Origin: Chloroflexota bacterium
GTDB lineage: Bacteria > Chloroflexota > Anaerolineae > Promineifilales > Promineifilaceae
NCBI GenBank assembly: GCA_008501785.1
Contig: QQUD01000961.1
Span: forward strand, 1-11,017
Length of the DNA: 11,017 nt
Direction of reading: 5' to 3'
The notes under the pieces are model-generated. The model worked only from the letters and a program-made list of their open reading frames with translations, made no database searches and was not told the origin of the DNA. A program made the position numbers and the translations under genes. Below, one piece after another: positions 4,177 through 10,199 of this stretch; position 1 is the stretch's first letter; every line of letters starts with the position of its first letter.

Positions 4177-4237
4177 GACCTCCGAGGTTTTTACCCGATA
4201 TGTGAGAGGCTCACTTCTCGTGAAAGCCTCGGAGGTC
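4177..4237. repeat. 11-bp perfect inverted repeat between the TM-repeat gene and nhaA
   Basis: GACCTCCGAGG (4177-4187) is exactly complementary to CCTCGGAGGTC (4227-4237). The 39-nt loop holds a second small hairpin, GTGAG/CTCAC (4202-4206 and 4210-4214). It starts 13 nt past the stop codon of the minus-strand gene ending at 4250 and lies 74 nt upstream of the nhaA start. It could be that gene's transcription terminator or a leader structure for nhaA. No strong U-run follows the stem in the minus direction (it reads TCTCTTGAG), so a classical intrinsic terminator is not well supported. Confidence 0.6.
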
Positions 4238-7373: not shown

Positions 7374-7422
7374 TGTAGCCCGATTTTCTAAATCGGGTGT
7401 CGATTTGCAAAATCGACCTACA
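7374..7422. repeat. 49-nt three-way-junction (REP-like) palindromic element
   Basis: An outer stem TGTAG/CTACA (7374-7378 and 7418-7422) encloses two adjacent perfect 8-bp hairpins: CCCGATTT-TCT-AAATCGGG (7379-7397) and GTCGATTT-GCA-AAATCGAC (7399-7417). Apart from the two 3-nt loops, only T7398 is unpaired. The two hairpins share the inner CGATTT...AAATCG, as if one derived from the other. The lack of a T-run after it and the compact double-hairpin design fit a REP-type interspersed palindrome better than a terminator. It lies between the permease stop and the response-regulator start. Confidence 0.75.
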
Positions 7423-7452: not shown

Positions 7453-8121
7453 ATGGATAACAATATTAGAGTGCTTGTTGTGGATGATTATGCTGTTGTT
7501 CGGCATGGGTTAATCGCATTAATTGACACAGCTCCTGGGATGGTTGTGGTAGGTGAGGCGGAGGATGGGTTAATGGCTGTGCAACAAGCCCAACTTTTGC
7601 ACCCAGACGTGATTGTGATGGATTTGGTGATGCCCGGTTTGGATGGCCTTGGGGCCGTTGCCGCCATCAAACAAGCCAGCCCACTCTCGCATATTCTCAT
7701 TCTGACCAATTTTGGTGAAGCATCGAAAGTGCGCGAGGCGCTGCGTGCAGGGGTGCATGGCTATTTGTTGAAAGATGCTATTTTGACAGACGTTGTTGAC
7801 GCCATCCAGGATGTCCATGATGGCAAACTGGCCTTACATCCCAGCATCACACATGTCCTGATTGAGGCACTGCAAGAACAAGGAGCGCGTCCAAAGAAAA
7901 CGGCCGTTTCCATTCACCCCGCCCTCACGAAACGAGAACAGGATATCCTGAAACTCATTGCCCAAGGATTGTCGAATCAAAACATTGCCGATGCGCTGCA
8001 CATTGACGAAGGAACGGTGCGTATTCATGTGAGCAGCATTTTACAGAAATTAAATCTGGAAAACCGTACCCAGGCCGCCCTGTATGCCCTGCGCCACGAT
8101 TTGGTTTCTATAAACGGTTAA
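7453..8121 (+). CDS. NarL/FixJ-family (LuxR-type HTH) response regulator
   Basis: 222-residue DNA-binding response regulator, probably a transcription factor switched by phosphorylation. Receiver domain about 4-122: acidic pair D11/D12, phospho-acceptor D57 in VIVMDLVMPGLDG, switch Thr T85 in LILTNF, and conserved Lys K107 in GYLLKDA. A linker (about 123-153) leads to a LuxR/GerE helix-turn-helix (about 156-215) with LTKREQDILKLIAQGLSNQNIA and the recognition segment GTVRIHVSSILQKL. All receiver residues are intact, so it should be phosphorylatable. No histidine kinase lies in the window, so its partner is elsewhere or just outside. Its targets are unknown; the flanking transport and stress genes are candidates by proximity only. 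One AACGGCCGTT word lies in the linker (codons K149-V152 region). Confidence 0.95.
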   Translation: MDNNIRVLVVDDYAVVRHGLIALIDTAPGMVVVGEAEDGLMAVQQAQLLHPDVIVMDLVMPGLDGLGAVAAIKQASPLSHILILTNFGEASKVREALRAGVHGYLLKDAILTDVVDAIQDVHDGKLALHPSITHVLIEALQEQGARPKKTAVSIHPALTKREQDILKLIAQGLSNQNIADALHIDEGTVRIHVSSILQKLNLENRTQAALYALRHDLVSING

Positions 8122-8129
8122 GAATATTT

Positions 8130-8233
8130 ATGAACCTGAAGCAATTAAATCGGTAATCGTAAAACATGGCACTTCAGGTTCATTAAGGCGTTTCAGATAG
8201 CTCGTTTTTTACCGATTTAATTATTGAAACGCC
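8130..8233. repeat. Interleaved triple inverted repeat (potential kissing hairpins or switch)
   Basis: Three perfect inverted repeats are arranged A-B-A'-C-B'-C'. A is ATGAACCTGAAG (8130-8141) with A' at 8172-8183 (12 bp). B is AATTAAATCGGTAA (8143-8156) with B' at 8209-8222 (14 bp). C is GGCGTTTCA (8187-8195) with C' at 8225-8233 (9 bp). A/A' and C/C' can form together as two hairpins with loops of 30 and 29 nt. B lies in the first loop and B' in the second, so the loops can pair with each other (kissing or pseudoknot), or B/B' can form instead and exclude both hairpins. The element fills almost the whole gap between the response regulator and the desuccinylase-like gene and ends 11 nt before that gene's ribosome site. 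A T6 run (8205-8210) overlaps the start of B'. Confidence 0.8.
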
Positions 8234-8244
8234 ATCAATTGTCT

Positions 8245-8249
8245 GGAGG
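8245..8249 (+). promoter_or_regulatory. Ribosome binding site of the desuccinylase-like gene
   Basis: GGAGG stands 5 nt before the ATG at 8255, fixing the start. It lies just downstream of the interleaved inverted repeats, so a fold change there could affect its access. Confidence 0.7.
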
Positions 8250-8254
8250 AAATC

Positions 8255-9226
8255 ATGCCAAATGTGCCAATTATTGAACAACTGAATATGCAACATATTG
8301 AACGGGGTCAGATTTCTCGTTTCTGGCTAGAGATCACACGCAGCGGATTAGGGAACCCGCTGCGTGTGCCTTTGTTGATTGCCCGTGGTTGGCAAGATGG
8401 GCCTGTGTTGGGTGTAACGGCCGTTGTGCATGGCAACGCTTTAAACGGATTACCTGTCGTGCGCCAACTGTTTCAACAGGTAGACATCGACAATTTGCGC
8501 GGCACGATTATTGGCATACCCGTCATGAATATGCCCGCTTTTATGCGTCAACAGAGGCTTTTTCTGGATGGCACAGATTTGAATCAGATCATGCCCGGTC
8601 GCCAGGGTGGCAGCATGAGCGAAATGTACACCTTTCGCTTGATGGATCGCATTATTCGCCACCTTGATTACCTGGTTGATGTGCAAACGGCCGATTTTGG
8701 ACAAACAACTGCCTATTTTGTACGTGCCGACACAACTTTGACAAAACCAGCCATCACAGCGCGTCTGCTTAATCCAGACGTCATCTTGCATGACCCAGGC
8801 GAAGAAGGGACGTTACGGCGTGCGGCAACAGAGATGGGTATTCATGCAATAACGGCCGTTGTGGGTGGTTCACACCAATTTCAGCAGGATAGGATAGGCC
8901 TCGTTCGTGCAGGGTTGTTAAATTTGCTGATTCATCTCGATATGCAAGATGGCGAAATTGAGTCATGGAAAACACCGCTTGAATACCGGCACGCTTACTG
9001 GATATATACCCAGCAGGCAGGTATTTTGGAAGTTTTCCCCGAGGTAGGCGACAAAGTGAAACACAAACAAATCATTGGTCGCTTGACGACGGTCTTTGGC
9101 GATCTCATTCGTGAATATACCGCTCCCAGTATAGGAATCGTTTTAGGTAAAAGCGTGAATCCGGTCTGCAATGCAGGCGGCCGTATTCTTTATTTGGGAG
9201 TTCCCAAGCCACAAAATGGCAATTAA
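8255..9226 (+). CDS. Succinylglutamate desuccinylase/aspartoacylase-fold protein, catalytic residues lost
   Basis: 323-residue protein of the AstE/aspartoacylase family (M14-like zinc amidohydrolase fold). The framework is clear: TAVVHGNALNGLPVV (55-69), GTDLNQIMPGRQGGSMSE (106-123), LVDVQTADFG (140-149), GIHAITAVVGG (195-205), and a C-terminal beta-barrel (about 243-316) with VGDKVKHKQIIGRL and EYTAPSIGIVLGKS. Active members have HGxE, DLNR, DLHT and a catalytic Glu in the ITxE segment. Here the Glu after H59-G-N is Ala62, the DLNR Arg is Gln111, the DLHT His is Gln144, and the catalytic Glu is Val202. Only H59 of the usual set remains, so hydrolase activity is unlikely; a binding or regulatory role is inferred. 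The reading frame is intact with a strong GGAGG site, so it is not a decaying pseudogene by the usual signs. Its stop is 20 nt before the Usp gene, probably one transcript. Two AACGGCCGTT words lie inside, one over codon 202. Confidence 0.85.
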   Translation: MPNVPIIEQLNMQHIERGQISRFWLEITRSGLGNPLRVPLLIARGWQDGPVLGVTAVVHGNALNGLPVVRQLFQQVDIDNLRGTIIGIPVMNMPAFMRQQRLFLDGTDLNQIMPGRQGGSMSEMYTFRLMDRIIRHLDYLVDVQTADFGQTTAYFVRADTTLTKPAITARLLNPDVILHDPGEEGTLRRAATEMGIHAITAVVGGSHQFQQDRIGLVRAGLLNLLIHLDMQDGEIESWKTPLEYRHAYWIYTQQAGILEVFPEVGDKVKHKQIIGRLTTVFGDLIREYTAPSIGIVLGKSVNPVCNAGGRILYLGVPKPQNGN

Positions 9227-10136: not shown

Positions 10137-10199
10137 ATTTTCCCGGAAACTGAAAAGCATTTTGCTTTCGAGAGAATACAAATAAGTTTCCGGGAAAAT
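10137..10199. repeat. 15-bp perfect inverted repeat downstream of the Usp gene
   Basis: ATTTTCCCGGAAACT (10137-10151) is exactly complementary to the sequence at 10185-10199. The 33-nt loop holds a small hairpin AAAGCA/TGCTTT (10154-10159 and 10163-10168). It begins 8 nt after the Usp stop and ends 46 nt before the MscS start. It could stabilise or end the upstream transcript, but no T-run follows the stem, so a standard intrinsic terminator is not clear. Confidence 0.65.

Follow-up and report, generated by a model that had tools for sequence, protein, structure and literature searches.

The window analysed here, a stretch of 11,017 nucleotides of Chloroflexota DNA, holds, between genes for a response regulator and a deacylase, a compact arrangement of inverted repeats, which raises the question of whether it is an RNA regulator of the downstream gene or something of a different origin. 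Three perfect inverted repeats, interleaved in the order A-B-A'-C-B'-C', had been reported at 8130-8233, and they are present there: A (ATGAACCTGAAG, 8130-8141) pairs with 8172-8183 over 12 bp, B (AATTAAATCGGTAA, 8143-8156) pairs with 8209-8222 over 14 bp, and C (GGCGTTTCA, 8187-8195) pairs with 8225-8233 over 9 bp. The original prediction read them as a cis-acting kissing-loop complex or two-state switch of the desuccinylase-like gene, and named a mobile palindromic element as the alternative. The evidence described below argues for the alternative: the unit is very probably one copy of a new family of non-autonomous, MITE-like palindromic mobile elements.

The interleaved repeats cover 104 nt, and the full extent of the element is 106 bp (8130-8235), without any open reading frame of at least 80 aa overlapping it. 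It is bounded by 27-bp imperfect terminal inverted repeats, with ATGAACCTGAAGCAATTAAATCGGTAA as the left version and ATGGCGTTTCAATAATTAAATCGGTAA as the right version read inward, whose inner 15 nt agree at 14/15 positions and whose outer 12 nt agree at 5/12. The related short copies described below end in a similar way, with ATG (or ATA) on one side and CAT, AAT or similar on the other, and where C could be located in them the spacer between A' and C is TAA, TTAA, TCAA and similar. The interior from A' to C fits, roughly and by eye, an inverted copy of the junction between the right and left ends, as in a circular intermediate. The features of the locus are collected in Table 1.

Table 1. Coordinates of the element, its parts and the neighbouring genes in the window.
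Feature	Position	Strand	Basis
Upstream gene, LuxR-type response regulator	7453..8121	+	Pfam Response_reg + GerE
Left 27-bp terminal inverted repeat: outer tip A (8130-8141) and conserved core B (8143-8156)	8130..8156	+	Aligned with 10 other copies; 27-mer pattern in class
A', internal inverted copy of the left tip, hairpin 1 with A	8172..8183	+	Complementarity in all short copies; two two-sided pairs
TAA spacer between A' and C	8184..8186	+	Alignment of short copies
C, internal inverted copy of the right tip, hairpin 2 with C'	8187..8195	+	Three two-sided pairs; 84.8% of cells paired
Right 27-bp terminal inverted repeat: core B' (8209-8222) and outer tip C' (8225-8233)	8209..8235	+	Comparison with left repeat
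Likely ribosome-binding site GGAGG of the deacylase gene, outside the element	8245..8249	+	Motif by eye
Downstream gene, AstE/AspA-type deacylase (succinylglutamate desuccinylase/aspartoacylase catalytic domain)	8255..9226	+	Pfam

The unit lies just 5' of a likely ribosome site, the GGAGG ahead of the deacylase gene, which is followed on its 3' side by genes for a universal stress protein and then an MscS-type channel. The nearest relative of the deacylase that was found, 74% identical by alignment scan, is encoded at locus L121 on the Chloroflexota MAG JAACFF010000405.1; the same scan gave this one close locus and three distant ones, and no relatives were found by a single-protein scan of genome contigs or in viral contigs. 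At L121 the regulator and deacylase pair is present, with the two genes abutting at a gap of zero and no unit between them, and the gene pair therefore does not always carry the unit. The regulator reading frame of L121 (2476-2922) has 148 aa, too short for the C-terminal GerE DNA-binding domain that occupies residues 157-212 of the window's regulator. A more distant deacylase relative (L132, 44% identical) is directly preceded by another reading frame. The genome of MAG JAACFF010000405.1 (G001) was used as the centre for the whole-genome searches, and holds no copy of the unit by covariance model or 27-mer pattern, its best BLAST match having an E value of 0.87. Within the gap 8122-8254, a consensus scan gave no terminator-like or promoter-like site, and the reading of the unit as a terminator is unsupported.

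The claim that such a triple is very unlikely to arise by chance stands as regards its rarity. With arms of at least 8 nt and a span of at most 120 per repeat, the unit is the sole interleaved triple in the window, related genomes contain none in 282,080 bases, and dinucleotide shuffles of the gap gave one, even with arms of at least 7 nt, in 1 of 2000 cases. It does not stand as uniqueness: 63 triples are listed in 1,017,124 bases of 120 stretches of viral contigs, mostly with arms of 8-10 nt and AT-rich, GC-rich or repetitive, and such triples are therefore rare, not unique. These 120 stretches had been collected by the 14-mer B, from at least 120 such matches, and served as a background for triples only. 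The strongest triple among them (L095) has arms of 11/15/11 and spans 169 nt, being made of one repeated unit, and the window's triple is unusually compact, at 104 nt, for its arm lengths. The RNA folding energy of the unit is unremarkable (z -1.47), with 16 of 200 shuffles as stable.

Copies of the unit are dispersed in related genomes. A BLAST search with positions 8110-8260 against 55 genomes of the order of G001 gave a match at E <=1 in 30 of them. Nearly full-length matches, at 75-78% identity, were found in G314 (at three places), G317 and G316, while G306 has four matches, each split by an insertion, and G318 a partial one, with E values down to 4e-17 among all of these; shorter matches to the ends of the unit appear in G309, G215, G313, G305, G315 and others, and the remaining genomes with weak matches near E 1 are at chance level. 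In G309 many of the matches are found near contig ends, at a distance of up to about 140 bases, where assemblies are expected to be broken by a repeat. The alignment of the short copies runs from ATG to CAT, and outside it their flanks are unrelated. A covariance model built on 11 copies (the window's and 10 from relatives) found these 10 again in 5 of 56 genomes, with E values of 7e-18 to 5e-13, including four short copies in G306 and three in G314. It also gave three weak matches on the opposite strand, at the places already known in G314, and zero new places. None of the 10 copies in relatives is spanned by a reading frame of at least 100 aa. A scan of a single neighbouring protein for each copy gave Pfam matches for 7 of 10, to seven different functions, and none for the other three; in two cases (L170 and L173) the unit lies at the 3' end of its right-hand neighbour gene. 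When the unit was compared by BLAST with 396 genomes of the class, scoring no more than two candidates in each, 8 genomes had matches at E <=0.01, the long ones in G306 only. Phages and plasmids gave only matches of 31 and 29 nt (E 0.1 and 0.4), and viral contigs gave zero matches to the pattern of the A hairpin and to two 27-mer patterns. All four G306 copies (L168, L171, L172 and L174) carry an identical 24-nt insertion within B, which looks like two tiny hairpins, and this variant therefore probably spread after gaining the insertion.

The 27-bp terminal repeat is distributed more widely than the unit itself. When up to 3 mismatches are allowed, its 27-mer pattern is present in 23 of the 56 order genomes (the reversed control gives one match in one genome), and at up to 2 mismatches it is present in 33 of the 396 class genomes (reversed control 0); the exact B core has 63 matches in 12 chosen genomes, against 3 for its reversed control. 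This repeat bounds elements with widely differing interiors. In 21 other elements, chosen for carrying the repeat and taken for comparison, A' and C are lacking, and the complementarity of B and B' is therefore independent of the two-hairpin form. The left tip is complementary to the interior at 10-12 of 12 nt in 11/11 short copies and at 5-8 of 12 nt in 21/21 other elements, about as many as shuffled interiors give; for the 8-nt right tip, 7-8 positions are complementary in 9/11 short copies, one of which (L171) has its complement at a different place, and at most 6 in 21/21 other elements. The A/A' and C/C' pairings are thus a special feature of the subfamily to which the window's copy belongs. 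Where both ends were found in relatives, they lie about 71 to 268 bp apart, and at many fetched loci just one end is above threshold. Two elements have an extra repeat-like match, at 321 and 1119 bp, with scores of 16.1 and 14.3 versus 23-40 for close partners, and these matches were taken for chance. By eye, the interiors of the wider family frequently consist of palindromic repeats in their turn, such as hairpins of the GTCATTCC type, which suggests nesting.

Copies of the element show a strong tendency to sit at the axis of other palindromes, although the window's copy visibly does not. In 25 elements, the 20-nt flanks pair with each other at a mean score of 21.9, compared with 12.8 when mispaired, and none of 20,000 permutations did as well; taken singly, 12 of the 25 reach at least the 95th percentile of the mispairings, 9 of these at least the 99th, and 13 fall below the 95th. 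Some examples are the palindromic flanks of L194, GCGGCCGATCTT and CAGATCGGCCGC on either side of the element, the REP-like flanks of L196 in G313, GTAGCCCGATTTTG and GTAAATCGGGC, and, by eye, several G182 copies that also lie within such palindromes. In the window, positions 7375-7421 form a REP/BIME-like double hairpin, GTAGCCCGATTT..AAATCGGG-T-GTCGATTT..AAATCGACCTAC, which is an uninterrupted relative of the L196 flank repeat. For 11 of 27 elements the joined flanks resembled an uninterrupted site elsewhere, as against 10 of 81 controls with shuffled pairing; of the 11 matches, several are weak (3 mismatches). The joined flanks of L186 in G314 equal an uninterrupted site in another genome (L190 in G313) at 22/22 positions with no duplicated base, and a version of this empty site with one mismatch exists in G314 itself, where two different elements, L167 (104 bp) and L186 (171 bp), occupy the same point of this palindrome. 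A target-site duplication is typical of many, though not all, MITEs. It is absent at this one exact empty-site match, while in five other flank pairs a single base recurs on both sides (G/G or C/C), so that a 1-bp duplication is possible at some sites. As for the window's copy, its flanks score 11, under the control mean, and flank joining gave no empty look-alike site.

The reading of the unit as a cis-acting RNA switch or kissing-loop regulator, which would flip between an A+C state and a B state, draws on its place ahead of the likely ribosome site, on the full complementarity of the two loops in the window and on some two-sided base changes in its helices. The covariation was computed on the 11 aligned copies. 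The A helix is paired in 98.5% of cells and has two-sided changes at 2 pairs; in the C helix the two-sided changes fall at 3 pairs, one of which is an edge pair that is unpaired in 9/11 copies. For the whole structure, the covariation score beats 500/500 shuffles and the number of two-sided pairs 496/500, while the count of further pair types is within the ordinary range, with 70/500 shuffles reaching it (the shuffles are uncorrected for relatedness). All two-sided A changes come from a single genome, G314, and those in C from the window and G318, and they therefore represent few independent events. Compensatory changes in B/B' had been set beforehand as the test of a regulator, and this test went against it: the two parts of the helix are paired in 84.1% and 97.0% of cells, but 0/14 pairs have two-sided changes, and the departures from pairing amount to 16 cells without a pair and 5 with G-U. 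B is split by the 24-nt insertion in each of the four G306 copies. The predicted folds weigh in the same direction, with -27.0 kcal/mol for A+C, -30.5 for the best free fold and -17.7 for the best fold in which B is enforced (a kissing interaction lies outside the energy model); with the B-enforced fold so much weaker than A+C, switching between the two states would call for strong help from outside. Rfam gave no match at the gathering score in the window or at E <=1 in 8080-8300, in agreement with the earlier remark that no known riboswitch or attenuator class is recognisable. Locus specificity, which a regulator of this gene would imply, did not hold up either, given that relatives carry the unit beside unrelated genes, including the two copies at a neighbour's 3' end, that the end repeat alone occurs in many more genomes, and that the unit is absent from L121. 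On the grounds of dispersal, lack of two-sided B changes, energies and lack of an Rfam match, riboswitch, kissing loop and attenuator were rejected, and a regulatory origin of the unit is highly improbable.

Two further explanations deserve to be weighed. The inverted repeats could have been made locally by replication slippage, as a chance or template-switch product, and the perfection of all three repeats in the window would suit such an event, but the same arrangement recurs in five other genomes with its ends and spacing conserved, which makes this origin barely conceivable. The other explanation accepts a mobile origin and supposes that the window's copy was later co-opted for a role between the two genes, in mRNA processing, in attenuation or as an insulator. 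Dispersal in relatives may be compatible with such a secondary use; a read-through transcript is predicted to contain two stable hairpins, and MITEs can affect neighbouring genes by folding in mRNA, as reviewed in PMC3733652. The one close related locus, L121, lacks the element, however, and co-option is considered unlikely.

The preferred reading is thus that of a mobile element, and the mobile alternative named at the outset is supported by the dispersed copies in relatives. The element would have been inserted between the response-regulator gene and the deacylase gene, and the window's copy would presumably itself be mobile or multicopy. The conserved inner parts of the terminal repeats, B and B', would most simply be the recognition site of a putative mobilising enzyme acting in trans, with the hairpin ends, or hairpin targets, presumably read as single-stranded DNA. 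Each outer tip can pair with its own internal inverted copy, so that each end would fold as a hairpin (A and C), and B and B' would consequently fall in the two loops as a by-product. The hairpins would probably also form in any read-through transcript, as a side effect without a dedicated regulatory role.

Some similarities link the element to known systems. The bacterial MITEs named in PMC3733652 include RUP, NEMIS, ERIC and Nezha, and the element resembles such MITEs in being small, non-coding, bounded by imperfect terminal inverted repeats and multicopy in some relatives, its 106 bp and 27-bp repeats lying within the MITE ranges of 70-300 bp and about 15-30 bp. It differs from them in the absence of a target-site duplication at one exact empty site and of a parental transposase at the Y1_Tnp and IS110-type loci fetched, and the family differs in its preference for palindromes and in the other palindromic repeats that, by eye, often fill the interiors of the wider family. 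With REP, BIME and REPIN sequences and their RAYT (Y1) enzymes it shares extragenic hairpin palindromes and the occurrence of Y1_Tnp in 12/12 host genomes searched, but it has neither a GTAG nor a CGTC tag at its ends, its 27-bp repeats are long, and no repeat lies near the Y1 gene in the 30 loci fetched, out of 51 matches. Insertion into palindromes is described for ISPpu9, ISPa11, ISRm22 and IS621 in PMC1525189 and PMC3733652; the former adds that ISRm22 inserts at the axis of palindromy and that ISPa11, an IS110-family element, inserts without direct repeats, and the latter that GTAG-15 REP dimers are nested in long palindromes of A. variabilis. Insertion at the axis and the absence of a duplication are likenesses of behaviour, not of membership; those elements carry a transposase or are REP dimers, whereas the element described here is short, non-coding and found at several unrelated palindrome axes. 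With kissing-loop riboregulators and riboswitches, finally, the unit shares two hairpins, complementary loops and the position in an mRNA leader, but it is not conserved at its locus, and its loop complement is the core of a terminal repeat without two-sided changes. In the open-licence literature searched, on palindromic MITEs in Chloroflexi and on palindrome-targeted insertion, the repeat is undescribed, which is weak evidence of novelty.

As candidates for the mobilising enzyme, two families were searched in element-bearing genomes, with Y1_Tnp matches in 12/12 and IS110-type matches in 9/12. The 27-bp repeat is absent from the 44 loci fetched, which cover 30 of the 51 Y1_Tnp matches and all 14 IS110-type ones, and among these loci no transposase could be tied to the repeat. 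Three genomes are rich in matches to the 27-bp repeat (40 in G161, 38 in G296 and 32 in G143, with two loci of each inspected) and therefore look like a good hunting ground for the enzyme. The ends, target preference and host range of the element are defined well enough to seek it. A striking candidate riboswitch is hereby struck off and replaced by a testable family of mobile elements. Their insertion at several unrelated palindrome axes, with apparently no duplication of the target, could inform how small palindromic repeats spread in bacteria. A more far-reaching and rather doubtful extension, which we offer tentatively, would be that the elements form a large undescribed Chloroflexota superfamily that moves as folded single-stranded DNA and targets the hairpin loops of terminators, of REP-like repeats and possibly of each other, generating nested palindromes, and that the self-pairing tips of the window's subfamily evolved as the hairpin substrate of the enzyme.

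Other palindromic sequences were observed in the window. Two intergenic hairpins, at 10137-10199 and 4177-4237, have perfect stems of 15 and 11 bp and loops of 33 and 39 nt, and by eye their arms contain the near-palindromes TTTCCCGGAAA and CCTCCGAGG. The palindromic octamer ACGGCCGT occurs 13 times in the window, compared with 0.23 expected under a second-order Markov model, at positions 113, 1004, 1190, 2063, 2572, 4267, 5229, 6490, 7307, 7900, 8417, 8852 and 9508. It also ranks first among octamers in the sampled loci of G001, G314, G306 and G309 and is only moderately enriched in those of G331 and G332, and this over-representation is reminiscent of the cyanobacterial HIP1.
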